This document shows positions 33,411 to 38,444 of a stretch of DNA of 64,000 nt, piece by piece. Every line of letters starts with the position of its first letter. Within the stretch, counting starts at the first letter, position 1. The translations under genes were made by a program, and so were the position numbers. The notes under the pieces are model-generated. The model did not search any database and was not told where the DNA came from. It saw only the letters and a list, made by a program, of their open reading frames with translations. Source of the DNA: Succiniclasticum ruminis DSM 9236 (GTDB taxonomy: Bacteria; Bacillota; Negativicutes; Acidaminococcales; Acidaminococcaceae); the NCBI RefSeq assembly GCF_900112895.1, contig NZ_FONL01000013.1:1-64000 (forward strand), given 5' to 3'.

Positions 33411-33584
33411 TTACGCCTGCTTCTTCGGCACATCCCCCCGCAGGGCGGCGATGTTGCAGCTCAGTTCCCCGATGACTGCCGTCAGGCCCGCCAGCTTGTT
33501 TTCCATGCGCACCAGCAGAAACCAGCTCAGCACCATAGGGAAACCGAAATCCTTAATAAAGCCGAATACTTCGGAAACGTCCAT
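33411..33584 (-). CDS. YvrJ-family small membrane protein (holin-like topology)
   Basis: This 57-aa protein (61 aa if the upstream GTG is used) has one membrane segment (FGFPMVLSWFLLV) followed by a KLAGLTAVIGELSCNIAALR helix and a basic tail. It matches the YvrJ family. The topology resembles small holin-like peptides such as BhlA/UviB, but a pore role is inference. The ATG at 33584 agrees with the usual family start, although its ribosome binding site is weak. It is last in the order amidase, DUF1659, DUF2922, YvrJ. Confidence 0.75.
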   Translation of the reverse strand: MDVSEVFGFIKDFGFPMVLSWFLLVRMENKLAGLTAVIGELSCNIAALRGDVPKKQA

Positions 33585-33617
33585 CTTCAGCCACACTTTC
33601 CATGACCGGCTGAAGGA

Positions 33618-33839
33618 TTACTCAGCCACCACGTCTGTGGTGACGGTACGCAGGCGGCCTTCCACCGCTTCCACGATATCGCCGCCGCTGGTGTTGAAAA
33701 TGTTGTTTTCCACCACCACCTGCATGGCGGCGTCAATCTCTGCTTTTTTAATGCCGTTCTTCGGTTCCTCAATCTTGAGGTTAAACTTTTTACCTGCAGC
33801 ATTTTTGAAGACCAGATCCAAATCAGTATCAGAAGCCAC
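33618..33839 (-). CDS. DUF2922-family small protein
   Basis: This 73-aa protein starts ASDTDLDLVFKNAAGKKFNLKIEEPKNGI, the typical beta-rich DUF2922 pattern. The function is unknown. In Firmicutes it is usually next to DUF1659 and YvrJ genes, as here. It has an AGGAGG ribosome binding site and lies 32 bp after the DUF1659 gene. Confidence 0.8.
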   Translation of the reverse strand: MASDTDLDLVFKNAAGKKFNLKIEEPKNGIKKAEIDAAMQVVVENNIFNTSGGDIVEAVEGRLRTVTTDVVAE

Positions 33840-33871
33840 AATAATTTACCTCCTTTTTCCTTATCTTAATC

Positions 33872-34096
33872 TTATTCTTCCGTCAGGGAAGAACGTTCTA
33901 CCACTACAAAGCCGGTGACTTCGTTATCGAACAGGCTGCCCAGGGCCTTGCCTGCCGCCAGCATTTTAGCCGGTTCGGCATCCGGCTTCACATTGGAATA
34001 GGTGTAAGTCTTGCTTACCGGATTCCCGTCCGCGTCTTCACCACGGGCAATGGAAACGTTAAGAGAACGTTTTAATACATTCATAACTGCTGCCAT
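33872..34096 (-). CDS. DUF1659-family small protein
   Basis: This 74-aa protein (LKRSLNVSIARGEDADGNPVSKTYTYSNVKPDAEPAKMLAAGKAL) matches the DUF1659 pattern. The function is unknown. It begins 81 bp after the amidase gene and has AAAGGAGGTG before its start. The strong ribosome binding sites here and on DUF2922 suggest high expression. Confidence 0.8.
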   Translation of the reverse strand: MAAVMNVLKRSLNVSIARGEDADGNPVSKTYTYSNVKPDAEPAKMLAAGKALGSLFDNEVTGFVVVERSSLTEE

Positions 34097-34177
34097 AGTA
34101 TCACCTCCTTTCCGGTCAGAAGCATCAGGAATCTGCTTCTTCCATATGTATCCTTTACACCGCCCACAGAGTTACCG

Positions 34178-34873
34178 TCAGGCGGCCAAAAGAACTTTTC
34201 CCGCCGCCGTCAGGCCGGCATTCTCCTCATAGTGCCTGTCTACCAGGCCCTGCTCCCGCAGATCCCGGTAGAACGCCGCCTTTCCCCGCAGTACCTCACC
34301 GCCGGGCTGCAGTTTGCCGTAACAGGCGCTGTCCGGCAGGAACCAGAGATCCCAGCGCATGTCCGGATCCCCGTCACCGGGGCCGTAGCCGTCTTCAAAC
34401 GCGGCTTCACAGTGGGTCATGACCGTTTCCGGTGTAATGGGAAGATGCAGTTCCTCACAGAGGATCGCCACCACATCGGCCATGACTTCAATCTGGATAT
34501 CCGTAGGCGGCTGCGTACCGTAATCGATCAGGGCGCAGTCCTGCTTCTGCCCATCCGCAATCTCACAGGCTTCTTTCGTCTCATACCCGTCGCAGCCCAC
34601 AGGCAGCCAGCAGCGGGCGTCCGCGCCGCAGCACAGGGCGATGCCGATGGCGCTGTGGTTGCGCATCCAGGTGTGTATCTTGATATCCGTCAGATGCCCG
34701 CAGTTCACATACACCGTGCCGTCCCGGCCGATACACAGATGGTAATCGTCGTACACCTGCCCGTAGCGGCCGGCAGTCCAGTGCAGGTAAATGGTCCGGA
34801 TGCCGCACCCTGCTTCGCGGGCCATTTGCCGCAGCCCGCCTTCCAGAATGACTTCAGGGTTTTGTATCAGCAT
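34178..34873 (-). CDS. N-acetylmuramoyl-L-alanine amidase (Amidase_2), endolysin-like
   Basis: This 231-aa zinc amidase cuts the bond between muramic acid and the peptide stem of peptidoglycan. The first zinc ligand is in YLHWTAG (His31), a second in MTHCEAAFEDGYGPG, and the final region GDGDPDMRWDLWFLP holds the Asp or Cys-type ligand seen in the family. There is no signal peptide, so release would need a holin or other route, and a YvrJ gene lies three genes downstream. The C-terminal tail (DLREQGLVDRHYEENAGLTAAGKVL) is a short helix domain like those of phage lysins. AAAGGAGGTGGTG precedes the ATG. Confidence 0.86.
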   Translation of the reverse strand: MLIQNPEVILEGGLRQMAREAGCGIRTIYLHWTAGRYGQVYDDYHLCIGRDGTVYVNCGHLTDIKIHTWMRNHSAIGIALCCGADARCWLPVGCDGYETKEACEIADGQKQDCALIDYGTQPPTDIQIEVMADVVAILCEELHLPITPETVMTHCEAAFEDGYGPGDGDPDMRWDLWFLPDSACYGKLQPGGEVLRGKAAFYRDLREQGLVDRHYEENAGLTAAGKVLLAA

Positions 34874-34895
34874 AATTCACCACCTCCTTTCCTTT

Positions 34896-34966
34896 CCGTA
34901 AATTTCCCTTGCACTTTAATAAACTCACGACCCCCTGAAAAAACAAATACTTTTTTAAAAAAATAA
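34896..34966 (-). promoter_or_regulatory. Leader of the amidase operon with an unusual promoter sequence
   Basis: Between the XRE terminator and the amidase start, the minus strand reads T-rich, then CAGGGGGTCGTGAG, then TTTATTAAAG. I see no standard -35/-10 pair. This may be the promoter used by the sigma-like factor encoded at 35891. Confidence 0.35.
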
Positions 34967-35013
34967 AAAATGCATCGAAGAGGATCCTGTTACAGAATTC
35001 CTTCGATGCATTT
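34951..35013 (-). terminator. Strong terminator of the XRE regulator gene
   Basis: The perfect stem AAATGCATCGAAG / CTTCGATGCATTT is followed on the minus strand by a long T-rich tract. It separates the regulator from the amidase operon. Confidence 0.88.
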
Positions 35014-35067
35014 GTCACGTTGTCAGGATACATACAGCCTGCTACACGTACACATAAGACAAGGCAG

Positions 35068-35529
35068 CTATATGTTCTTTTCTTTCTCCCGGACAGCCAG
35101 GTACCGTTCTACCTTATCTTCAATGATAGCGTCAACCACCAGTTTGAACGCTTCACTGAAGGGCGGATAGAATAACGAACGGCAGTCCGGGACGGTTCGA
35201 TGATCTTCGGCCTTCCCGGAGTTATCAGCTCCGGCATCCTCTGCCGGACCAGTCCCCTGTTCCGTCAGCTGCCCGCCCTTTTGCGCTTCCCCTGCCTGCG
35301 TAGTACTGCCGGCCAGTTCCGTTAACTTCAATACTTCTACAATCTTGAGCCGGTTCTTTTTCTTTGGGACCAGACGGCCCCGTTCCCAACGGGAATCCGT
35401 TTCCACCGATACACCGACCCTTGCAGAAAACTTGGCCTGGGTCAGGTTTAATTCTTTCCGCCTGTTTCGTATCAATTCAGGCGTAAGGACAATCCCCGGC
35501 TCAACATATACTGCAAAAGTTCCCCTCAT
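35068..35529 (-). CDS. XRE-family repressor-like regulator
   Basis: This 153-aa protein has an N-terminal helix-turn-helix (VLTPELIRNRRKELNLTQAKFSARVGVSVETDSRWERGRLVPKK), a polar linker rich in T, A, G and E, and a C-terminal segment (FKLVVDAIIEDKVERYLAV). Its promoter faces away from the sigma-replication operon, and the gap between holds the TGACGT array. This is the arrangement of a phage-type repressor controlling itself and a divergent early operon. The ATG at 35529 sits 8 nt after GGGAGG; a GTG three codons earlier overlaps that site. Confidence 0.82.
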   Translation of the reverse strand: MRGTFAVYVEPGIVLTPELIRNRRKELNLTQAKFSARVGVSVETDSRWERGRLVPKKKNRLKIVEVLKLTELAGSTTQAGEAQKGGQLTEQGTGPAEDAGADNSGKAEDHRTVPDCRSLFYPPFSEAFKLVVDAIIEDKVERYLAVREKEKNI

Positions 35530-35572
35530 CTGACTCACCTCCCATCATATGGTTTTGACAATCACGTTTTAT

Positions 35573-35600
35573 ATTTTAGAGACTTAACCAAAATTGTCAA
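35573..35600 (-). promoter_or_regulatory. Promoter of the XRE repressor gene
   Basis: On the minus strand TTGACA (35595-35600) and TAAAAT (35573-35578) are 16 bp apart, giving a close match to a housekeeping promoter. Confidence 0.65.
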
Positions 35601-35607
35601 GATACCA

Positions 35608-35802
35608 GACGTCCATTTCCCACATAAATACTTGACGTTTTGAAAAAAAAACTTGACGTGGCGGAAAATATTTCTGACGTATACACGTCAAGCTTCCGTC
35701 CGGTTTTTTTTAATCACCGGAACAGAACGTCAAAAGCGGGATAAACCTGACGTAACCGCGTCTGTTTTACGATTTTTTTGACGTTTCCGGCCCCGGGACG
35801 TC
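35608..35802. repeat. TGACGT iteron/operator array
   Basis: Direct copies of TGACGT lie at 35633, 35654, 35675, 35748 and 35779. The first three are spaced exactly 21 bp apart (two helix turns), and most are preceded by T or C. Inverted copies ACGTCA lie at 35685 and 35727, and GACGTC forms lie at 35608 and 35797. One pair forms the dyad TGACGT-ATAC-ACGTCA. The array fills the space between two divergent promoters and sits beside replication genes, so it could be an operator set, an iteron origin, or both. Confidence 0.8.
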
Positions 35803-35805
35803 TGC

Positions 35806-35835
35806 TTTACAGCTAACGGCGCATTTTGATACAAT
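35806..35835 (+). promoter_or_regulatory. Promoter of the sigma-replication operon
   Basis: TTTACA (35806-35811), an 18-bp spacer and TACAAT (35830-35835) preceded by an extended -10 TG. The GACGTC element at 35797 abuts the -35 region, where bound repressor would interfere. Confidence 0.65.
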
Positions 35836-35890
35836 CATCCATGTTTTCCATGCGTTTAAATCAAACTGACAAAGGAGAGAAAACTGCTTT

Positions 35891-36556
35891 ATGGAATCAG
35901 ATCTTACGAAAACAAAACCGTCACACACTGCCGGTAAGCATGCCAACCCCTGGAAACAATGGATCGCCCGGGCAAACCGGGGCGATGAGAGAGCGGCCCT
36001 GAACTTTTTTGCCAGCGTTGAACCTATCGTCCGGGAATTTTGCCGTATTCCCTATTTCCGTGACAACCTGGGTATAAATGAAATCTGCGGCATCTCCAAC
36101 CATAAGCTGACGGAGTTTCTTAAACGCGCGCCCTACATCCGGACGGACGAAGAAGTGCCCTGCGTGTTAAAGACCGTTCTCCGCAACACACTGTTACGGA
36201 GTGTGAAACAGCACAAGACCCACTGTAAGATGCAGCAGCCATGTATTACAGACACCTGGCAAAAAGAGGCTGCCAACACAATCACCGAGTTACTGCCGGC
36301 AGACAGTTCCCTTGAACCGGAGGCCCTTCTCCTTCGAAACGAACTGACACAGGATGTAAAAGAAGCCCTGAAACAACTGAAACCCCTGGAACAGAAAGTT
36401 ATCCGCGGCCTGTATTATGAAGGCAAAAACAACAAAGCGCTGGCAAATGACATGAATATTACGCCACAGTATGTATCCTTGCTGAAACGGAAAGGGTTGT
36501 CCCGTATGAAGAAACTGCTAAAGATAAAGTATCCTGAGCAGGACATACTGAAGTAA
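35891..36556 (+). CDS. Sigma-70-family-like RNA polymerase sigma factor (phage/element type)
   Basis: This 221-aa protein has a clear sigma region 4 at the C-terminus (about 155-212: ALKQLKPLEQKVIRGLYYEGKNNKALANDMNITPQYVSLLKRKGLSRMKKLL), which in this family binds the -35 promoter element. The N-terminal half (WKQWIARANRGDERAALNFFASVEPIVREF) resembles a divergent region 2. AAAGGAG lies upstream. Similar factors next to YvrJ/DUF2922/DUF1659 genes occur in other Firmicutes. It could direct the amidase operon on the other strand. An activator that does not replace sigma is the alternative. Confidence 0.78.
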   Translation: MESDLTKTKPSHTAGKHANPWKQWIARANRGDERAALNFFASVEPIVREFCRIPYFRDNLGINEICGISNHKLTEFLKRAPYIRTDEEVPCVLKTVLRNTLLRSVKQHKTHCKMQQPCITDTWQKEAANTITELLPADSSLEPEALLLRNELTQDVKEALKQLKPLEQKVIRGLYYEGKNNKALANDMNITPQYVSLLKRKGLSRMKKLLKIKYPEQDILK

Positions 36557-36607
36557 CGGAATCCGCAATACCCACTATGCTATAAGAAAAGGAATGAGAC
36601 ACTTATC

Positions 36608-37537
36608 ATGACCAGACAACTCTTAGCAAACACCTTTGACGCCAAAACCATCGCCGCCGTAGACTATCTGGCAGCAGAAGACGCGGACGCCGTGCTGGCC
36701 GTCTGGTTCCGGATGCTGGCCCTGGCCGTCCACGATCCGGAAGGCAGCGTGCGGCTGACCCCGGGCCTGCAGATGGATACCGAAGCACTGGCGGGGTATT
36801 TCCACTGTACCGCGGAGGCCGTAGAAGCAACGGTCCAGGTCATGGAACAGCTGCAGCTCCTCGCCAGAGACGAAACCGGCAACCTGCGGATACCCGCCTG
36901 CGGCGGAACGAACCGCGGCCGCAAAACAAAAAAAGCCTCTGACTCCAATCTGTTTTCCGGGGAAAAAGAAACAGAGAAAGAGAAACGAAAAGAAGCAAAA
37001 GAAAAGAGTAAAGAGAATAATAAAAAGGCGGATATCGCTGCCGCGATATCTGACGCGCGGCGGCAGACGGAACCGGAAATAAAAAATCAGGCCAAAACCC
37101 CGGATACACCGGTCCGGGCGGCAAAACAGGCAGCACCGCCCCAGCCAAAAGGCACCCGCCTGATCCCCGCCGGGCAGCTGCCGGAGGCGGTACAGAAGAT
37201 TCTGGAGGCCTGGAACAGCCTGCCCCTGGACAACAAGTTCCAGGGCCTCTACCCCGCCATGCTGAAACGACTGGAAGCCCTGCTGGAACAGTACGGGGAA
37301 GAAGCCCTCCACAAAGCCATCCGCAACGTGGCCGGCAGCCAGTTCCTGCTGGGTCACTCCCGGAACAACCGGGGCTGGTCCATTACACTGGGGTGGATGC
37401 TGGCGCCGGAGCATCTGGAAAATATCCTGCAGGGAAAGTATCAGGACAAAAAGCCCCGGGGCGACAGCCTGCTGTTCCAGCCGGGGGACGAAGCGTCCCC
37501 CTACAGCAACGGATTCTACGGAACGGTGGTGAACTGA
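36608..37537 (+). CDS. Phage replisome organizer-like replication protein
   Basis: This 309-aa protein has an N-terminal winged-helix-like domain (about 1-100), a highly charged K/E linker (about 110-150), and a C-terminal segment FLLGHSRNNRGWSITLGWMLAPEHLENILQGKY. That C-terminal pattern is common in phage and plasmid replication initiators that recruit helicase loaders (DnaD-like/phage replisome organizer). The gene ends 1 nt before the helicase-loader gene. The obvious binding target would be the TGACGT array about 1 kb upstream. Confidence 0.78.
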   Translation: MTRQLLANTFDAKTIAAVDYLAAEDADAVLAVWFRMLALAVHDPEGSVRLTPGLQMDTEALAGYFHCTAEAVEATVQVMEQLQLLARDETGNLRIPACGGTNRGRKTKKASDSNLFSGEKETEKEKRKEAKEKSKENNKKADIAAAISDARRQTEPEIKNQAKTPDTPVRAAKQAAPPQPKGTRLIPAGQLPEAVQKILEAWNSLPLDNKFQGLYPAMLKRLEALLEQYGEEALHKAIRNVAGSQFLLGHSRNNRGWSITLGWMLAPEHLENILQGKYQDKKPRGDSLLFQPGDEASPYSNGFYGTVVN

Positions 37538-37538
37538 C

Positions 37539-38444
37539 ATGGACAACGATCTGACGCCGGTCGGGGAGATCCTCTCCGGTACTACCGGCTACGACTGGGC
37601 CAAATACGGCTACAGCCTCATCACCGAAGAAACCTTTGAAGGCGGCTACCACGAAGGGGACTACGAAAAGGACGGCGTCATGTACTGCGGCTACTGCCAC
37701 ACGCCCAAGCAGATTCTGCATATGTGGCGGGGGGAGATGCGACCCTTCCCCATCCACTGCCGGTGCCAGCGCGAATGCCTGGCGCGGATCGCGGAAGAAC
37801 AGGAAGAACGGGCCCGGTGGGAAAAGGCGGAACTCTGCCGCCAGCATGCCCTGCCCTACGCCTATATGCACCGGTGGACCTTTGCCAACGATGACGGCGG
37901 CAGCCCCCGGGCCACCCGTTACTTCCGCCAGTACGCGGACAACTTCGAAGAAATGAAAAAAGACGGCAGCGGAATCCTCCTGTTCGGCCCCAAAGGAGCC
38001 GGAAAGACCTACGCCGCCGTCCAGATCGTCAACGCCCTGTGCGACAAAGGCTATCACTGCCTGGTGACCAGCTTCATGGAAATCGTAAAAAACCTGCTCT
38101 CCCTGAACCGGGAGAACAGGCAACAGTATCTGGATGATATATGCAACCACGACCTGCTGGTCTTCGATGACTTCGGCGGGGAGACCAACAGCAACTTCTT
38201 CGACATCAACATGGAAGAGATCGTAAAGACCTGCTACCGGAAATTCATTCCCATGATCGTCATCACGCCCCTGGCCCAGGACGCACTGGAACAGGGCCTG
38301 AACGCCACCCGCCAGAAAGCGGTGGACCGCCTGAAGGAACGCTGCTACTGCCTCACCCTACTCAATACCAGCCGGAACAAACAGCTGACAAAAGAACGGA
38401 AGGAGAAAATGGAAAAGCTGCTGGGGATTGGGAAGAAACTATAA
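37539..38444 (+). CDS. DnaC-like helicase loader ATPase
   Basis: This 301-aa AAA+ protein has Walker A GPKGAGKT (150-157) and Walker B-like LLVFDDFGGE, as in DnaC/DnaI loaders. An N-terminal cysteine cluster (C50, C53, C74, C76, C80) could bind zinc. The start codon lies 1 nt after the stop of the replisome-organizer gene, so the two are probably translated together. The C-terminus meets the convergent aldolase gene within 4 bp, which marks the sharp edge of the element. Confidence 0.87.
   Translation: MDNDLTPVGEILSGTTGYDWAKYGYSLITEETFEGGYHEGDYEKDGVMYCGYCHTPKQILHMWRGEMRPFPIHCRCQRECLARIAEEQEERARWEKAELCRQHALPYAYMHRWTFANDDGGSPRATRYFRQYADNFEEMKKDGSGILLFGPKGAGKTYAAVQIVNALCDKGYHCLVTSFMEIVKNLLSLNRENRQQYLDDICNHDLLVFDDFGGETNSNFFDINMEEIVKTCYRKFIPMIVITPLAQDALEQGLNATRQKAVDRLKERCYCLTLLNTSRNKQLTKERKEKMEKLLGIGKKL

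Follow-up and report, generated by a model that had tools for sequence, protein, structure and literature searches.

A recurrent cassette of sigma factor, replication and putative release genes dispersed in Succiniclasticum genomes

The window analysed here is a stretch of 64,000 nucleotides from Succiniclasticum ruminis DSM 9236 (contig NZ_FONL01000013.1, positions 1 to 64,000), and the element in question spans positions 33411 to 38444 of it. Genes for an XRE-family regulator and for a putative release operon, comprising an N-acetylmuramoyl-L-alanine amidase and three small proteins of the DUF1659, DUF2922 and YvrJ families, lie on one strand; genes for a sigma-70-like factor, a replisome organizer and a DnaC-like helicase loader lie on the other. 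The unit is real and recurrent and, in the literature searched, undescribed. There is about an even chance that it is one member of a family of chromosomal replicon cassettes, dispersed through Succiniclasticum and lacking an integrase, that are equipped with a sigma-driven release operon. A sequence-only reading, made earlier from the letters of the window, had named the same genes, and each was recovered in its place and on its strand with a family-level match.

Recurrence and chromosomal setting

Cassettes of 5-8 kb with the same gene order are present in 18 complete copies in Succiniclasticum, besides partial and decayed ones, which bears out the earlier proposal of a compact unit without virion genes. 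The order, YvrJ-DUF2922-DUF1659-amidase-(XRE) on one side and sigma-organizer-DnaC(-DnaB) on the other, recurs far more often than expected by chance; among the 18 copies the XRE gene is unrecognised in some, and the amidase gene is placed after YvrJ in two (loci L038 and L103). Most Succiniclasticum genomes hold at least two copies and some up to three or four, and DUF2922 occurs in 49 of the 59 genomes of the family Acidaminococcaceae, with one to five copies each. The genome to which the window belongs, a 2.5 Mb draft in which the window sits on contig 15, contains two loci besides the window copy: a complete DnaB-bearing copy (L033, contig 35) and a remnant (L280:8050-8311, genome G000, contig 33) in which a promoter motif, a leader RNA and an internally deleted or truncated DUF2922 gene are left. 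Decay is also seen in L036, L050 and L121, and the copies L044, L048 and L052, which form a divergent clade, have the release genes with no sigma gene near.

Most copies sit at unrelated sites with differing flanks. Copies of the same type share no flanks across species. The exception is type A (window, L035, L106), whose members sit at the GtrA site, where L038, a copy of another type, is also found. The copies L033 and L049 are 92.6% identical across 7.9 kb, and beyond this their neighbours differ. A parS-like palindrome, GTTTCACGTGAAAC, marks one end or both of several copies, at L033:2230 and 10001, L049:9445 and 17228, L034:9459 and L044:11272, with up to about eight per genome; its positions at both ends of L033 and L049 led us to consider such palindromes as general element ends, an idea that was rejected, since they are missing from most copies and several occur at other places in every genome.

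One flank of the window copy consists of genes for a HigA/M78 protein, a sulfatase-family membrane protein, GtrA, malic enzyme and PGM, the other of genes for an aldolase, a DUF1537-type kinase, a cupin and a 2-hydroxycarboxylate transporter. The copy lies amid ordinary metabolic or envelope genes and is not a prophage end. In agreement with the sequence-only reading, no integrase, terminase or capsid gene occurs in the window flanks, and none was seen in the Succiniclasticum copies. Tyrosine recombinases (PF00589), mapped in all 14 genomes, lie nowhere closer than 30 kb to a Succiniclasticum copy on the contig that carries it, several of these contigs being short. The combination of an integrase with virion or packaging genes that would mark an ordinary or defective prophage was not found near the copies. 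Two outcomes that the earlier reading had named as refuting it, one end of an ordinary prophage or an unconserved gene order, were both tested and neither was observed. Defective prophage remnants, in which early and lysis genes were kept by chance, would account for the phage-type replication genes, the endolysin-like amidase and the four decayed loci; this explanation is disfavoured and very improbable in view of the identical order in 18 complete copies, their common promoter and conserved small genes, the lack of adjoining virion genes seen, and a release half that is not phage-specific.

Control region and replication half

The candidate repressor, the XRE-family regulator, is encoded at 35068..35538 on the minus strand (HTH_3, E=1.7e-8), and the sigma-70-like factor at 35891..36556 on the plus strand (TIGR02937, E=2.7e-12, above the cut-off; Sigma70_r4). 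Repeat counts in the gap between them revealed an array of TGACGT/ACGTCA motifs at 35555..35800, which are candidate operators: ACGTCA occurs seven times in 352 bp, as against a mean of 3.0 and a maximum of 6 for the commonest 6-mer in 200 shuffles. The close copy L106 has the same array, and other copies have different repeats. Housekeeping-type promoters for XRE and sigma, predicted by a sigma-70 promoter scan at 35600-35573 (minus strand) and 35806-35835 (plus strand), flank the array in the window copy.

A candidate promoter of a different type precedes the amidase gene. It lies at 34903..34946 on the minus strand (TTTTTTCAGGGGGTCG...TTTATTAAAGTGCAAGGG, motif core 34903-34924) and was recognised by alignment with other copies; the motif, roughly TTTTTCGGGGNTCG-N4-8-GATTATATAAGTGAGGGG, is unlike that of sigma-70 and common to most copies. 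A search of 14 genomes for its strict form gave six exact matches, each of them ahead of an amidase gene of the element. A weight matrix built from ten copies recovers the motif in held-out copies at scores far above background; the window promoter, one of those held out, reached 17.3 bits vs a background 99th percentile of 11.5. The matrix also finds the motif in L052 and, outside the genus, in L235 and L181, which represent a few other genera, and did not find it before sigma genes. These results are consistent with the sigma factor acting on the release operon. The earlier proposal of a circuit leading from repressor to sigma factor to amidase gains support from the promoters flanking the TGACGT array and from the element-specific amidase promoter; the pairing of the sigma factor with that promoter is a step that we infer. 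Between XRE and amidase, on the same strand, the terminator postulated earlier is recognisable as an intrinsic-terminator-like hairpin (34955..35011, minus strand; ATGCATCGAAG...CTTCGATGCAT) followed by a T-rich tract; it was read directly from the sequence, its loop being longer than the hairpin scan allows.

On the plus strand, the sigma gene is followed by genes for a phage-type replisome organizer of the DnaD/O-like kind (36608..37537; Phage_rep_org_N, PF09681, 8.8e-7; DnaD-like loader phrog_10469, 3e-21) and for the DnaC-like helicase loader (37539..38444; phrog_50, 2.4e-31). In ten copies a DnaB gene (DnaB_C in L033) adjoins the loader gene, completing the organizer, loader and helicase set of a lambda-type replicon. 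Iterons immediately before an AT-rich stretch in the organizer gene are the layout of a lambda-type origin. Measured against 30 codon-preserving shuffles, iterons beside such a stretch are in excess in L033, L037, L042, L045, L046, L049, L051 and L122, and nearly so in L039 and L112. The window copy has an A-rich stretch and a palindrome within its organizer gene (36908..37050, plus strand; GATATCGC-TGCC-GCGATATC at 37031-37050), a weak candidate origin; the palindrome is also present at the corresponding position of L035. Of the two halves of the cassette, the replication half alone seems to derive from a phage. It resembles lambda-type phage modules in that a single operon encodes the organizer, a DnaC-like loader and often DnaB, with in-gene iterons and an AT-rich stretch in about ten copies; it differs from them in being tied to a sigma factor and DUF1659-DUF2922-YvrJ, and in lacking structural, packaging and integration genes. 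Downstream of YvrJ, a short D5_N-like gene (a plasmid/phage primase domain) was observed at L037:704-1075, with similar genes in L040, L045, L105 and L122.

The putative release half

The amidase (Amidase_2) is encoded at 34178..34873 (PF01510, E=8.1e-11; endolysin phrog_5867, 1.4e-26), followed on the same minus strand by DUF1659 (33872..34096, 74 aa; PF07872, E=1.3e-17), DUF2922 (33618..33839, 73 aa; PF11148, E=2.6e-20) and YvrJ (33411..33596, 61 aa, a possible membrane protein; PF12841, E=1.3e-12). The matches to PF01510 and to an endolysin phrog supply the peptidoglycan hydrolase expected of a holin-endolysin cassette, and amidase residues H31, H154 and D161 are invariant in 26 relatives. 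The YvrJ motif GFP..SW.LLVRME is kept across Bacillota. For DUF1659 and DUF2922 a beta-beta-alpha-beta fold is predicted in both cases (AF2, pLDDT 83 and 78, respectively); homology between the two was considered and dropped, the hhalign comparison not being significant although both models share this topology. Structure look-ups with the two models returned nothing significant, with a weak likeness to phi29 p56, and in the literature searched DUF2922 is the subject of no paper, DUF1659 being mentioned once in passing.

Median identity between copies is about 73-84% for DUF2922, DUF1659 and YvrJ and 54% for the amidase, compared with 24-27% for XRE, 31% for sigma, 32-33% for the organizer and 37-38% for DnaC. 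The three small proteins are more alike within a genome than under label permutation (P=0.03, 0.004 and 0.01), which, the permutation ignoring phylogeny, is only suggestive of within-genome homogenisation. In the gap between amidase and DUF1659, most copies contain a conserved RNA-like element of 74 nt with a variable hairpin upstream. An alignment of 15 sequences has a mean column identity of 87% and some paired changes in one stem, most columns being invariant, so that covariation is limited. The covariance model (R1) has 18 matches in the 59 family genomes, all in Succiniclasticum and in or at element loci (L033:8845-8918, L034:10426-10499, L046:9393-9466, L041:10495-10569 and 14 other places), and none in the window; no Rfam family matched at the position in L034.

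Beyond Succiniclasticum, DUF2922 is found in 205 of 398 genomes of the Bacillota sample and in 102 of 120 Negativicutes genomes, mostly as a single copy, and a DUF1659-DUF2922-YvrJ operon is present in about half of the sampled Bacillota genomes. Outside the genus this operon is often followed by Amidase_2 and a ComK-like protein or preceded by a sigma factor; the ComK likeness of the operon-linked family is weak and repeated, 3 of 11 members matching (best E 1.5e-6). Phascolarctobacterium has the small genes with sigma and amidase, without replication genes; sigma and DnaC genes are present in Acidaminococcus. The window copy has the features of the Bacillota operon, with the three small genes adjacent and accompanied by amidase and sigma. 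On this distribution the release half is classed as a Bacillota-wide chromosomal operon, not a phage lysis core; of the "phage control, replication and lysis core" seen in the sequence-only reading, it is the replication half that holds as phage-like. A sigma gene also adjoins DUF1659/DUF2922 in the absence of replication genes in other Negativicutes (L181, L183, L184, L185, L189) and other Bacillota, and this points to a sigma-release pairing that predates the replication genes. The simplest history is that in Acidaminococcaceae an old operon of regulator and release genes took up a phage-type replicon or was taken up by one. Two further occurrences were recorded: tandem DUF1659-DUF2922-DUF1659-DUF2922-YvrJ arrays at up to five loci per genome in another Negativicutes genus (L193:9675-10670, L195:2875-3768, L198:9254-10162), and four Paraclostridium sordellii plasmids (PLSDB H2-H5) with an annotated DUF2922 protein of 36-37% identity.

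The same distribution bears on a second explanation, possible and rather unlikely, in which the unit is a host regulatory operon and not mobile: sigma or ComK-like control would act under stress or in a state resembling competence, and the added replication genes would serve the host in local DNA amplification or repair. The mostly single-copy presence of DUF2922 across phylum and class, the linkage of the small genes to Amidase_2 and ComK-like or sigma genes, and a staphylococcal-nuclease homologue plus amidase in L134 agree with it. In contrast, the Succiniclasticum unit is multicopy and dispersed, is joined to a replisome of phage type and often has an origin of its own, and its repressor and replication genes diverge as in competing replicons.

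In the YvrJ region of Bacillus subtilis, from which the family takes its name, the gene lies near an alternative sigma factor, SigO/RsoA (yvrI-yvrHa); we know of no DUF1659/DUF2922/replication cassette there. The clostridial UviA/UviB and TcdR/TcdE modules likewise place a sigma factor beside a small holin-like protein and are considered to drive the release of proteins that lack a signal peptide (PMC9527704, PMC3369941). They differ from the cassette, which has other small-protein families, an amidase and a replication module.

Mobility and biological meaning

Tailed phages carry relatives of both the amidase and the organizer, and exchange of genes between cassette and phages is therefore likely. 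One IMG/VR contig (L143:2590-6397) has two large serine integrases ending about 200 bp before an amidase gene cut near residue 50, with DUF1659 next; this amidase gene may be a site of phage integration. Serine integrases of this type have no counterpart in the Succiniclasticum loci. Tandem small genes with Nif11-type leaders, possibly precursors of modified peptides, lie at L047:15916-18500 and L280:3112, 12400 and 14941, and also near L033, L036, L042, L045 and L050. Several copies have genes for a Dcm-type methylase and a Vsr-like protein at their flanks (L034:8651, L036:5570 and 8289, L039:10032, L033:11134).

Phage satellites such as PICMI (PMC10803314), P4-like elements and PICI are likewise small and have their own replication genes and a repressor without capsid genes of their own. 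The core of PICMI comprises an integrase, AlpA and a primase at the fis site, with at most one element per genome (PMC10803314); the cassette has none of these features and none was found next to the window copy, a short D5_N-like protein being confined to a few of the other copies, and Succiniclasticum genomes hold several copies. A satellite that uses a helper phage or host recombinase to excise and be packaged, its small proteins interfering with or joining helper particles or aiding lysis, would be compatible with the small size, with replication genes of phage type, a repressor and several dissimilar copies in one genome, and with neighbouring Dcm/Vsr-like genes and an amidase resembling tailed-phage endolysins. 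It is made improbable by the lack of an integrase or known packaging gene in the copies, by small proteins that are Bacillota-wide chromosomal proteins, and by the absence of these proteins from the phage records, a result still compatible with packaging in helper particles.

Several observations weigh against the reading as mobile replicon cassettes with a release operon. DUF2922 (D2922) has no match in the phage collection and the small proteins are absent from its phage records; viral contigs contain relatives of the amidase only, one adjoining DUF1659. No circular or free form was found, and short contigs show no terminal overlaps. At the window locus a search for a clean empty site gave no junctions, the GtrA-side block being kept in relatives and the opposite side not, and neither target duplications nor defined ends could be established for the copies, many of whose contigs are short drafts; movement by ordinary recombination or transformation is therefore also possible. 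That similar REP or XRE types shut each other out of a genome is not claimed: no within-genome pair exceeds 50%, yet this is not significant (P=0.34 and 0.74). The weight-matrix scan did not detect the amidase promoter motif in L035, L037, L112 and L121. YvrJ, called holin-like in the sequence-only reading, does belong to the family PF12841, and its role as a holin is weakly supported (phrog holin E=0.016; best 19-residue hydropathy 1.5). The window copy has no DnaB gene, and its iterons, like those of L035, are not significant, so that its replication competence is doubtful; it may not be replication-competent and may now run the sigma-release circuit only.

For the family of cassettes with a release operon as a whole, the following cycle can be proposed. 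The XRE protein would hold the divergent sigma operon off at its operator array; once repression is lifted, the housekeeping promoter would yield sigma factor, organizer and DnaC-like loader, plus DnaB in ten copies. The organizer would melt the origin within its own gene, and the cassette would be amplified where it lies or once host or helper recombination has excised it. The sigma factor would read one dedicated promoter to turn on the amidase-DUF1659-DUF2922-YvrJ operon, which the cassette would have captured; the envelope would be opened, and either the small proteins or the amplified DNA, or both together, could be let out. A bolder version, which we regard as a distinct outsider, would make it a DNA cassette of a new class, selfish or domesticated: equipped with a lambda-type origin and helicase kit, a sigma factor and a private promoter, it would amplify itself, leave the cell via the small-protein/amidase operon and spread, for example by transformation with released DNA, with no gene for an integrase, a capsid or conjugation.

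Three protein families of which little is known, found in half of the sampled Bacillota genomes and almost unnamed in the literature searched, are now tied to sigma or ComK-like regulators, to an amidase and, in one genus of rumen bacteria, to a replicon. One promoter, one operon and several natural copies per genome make their function testable. If the cassette does amplify and release DNA, it would represent a route of gene spread overlooked by searches for mobile elements that rely on integrases or capsids.

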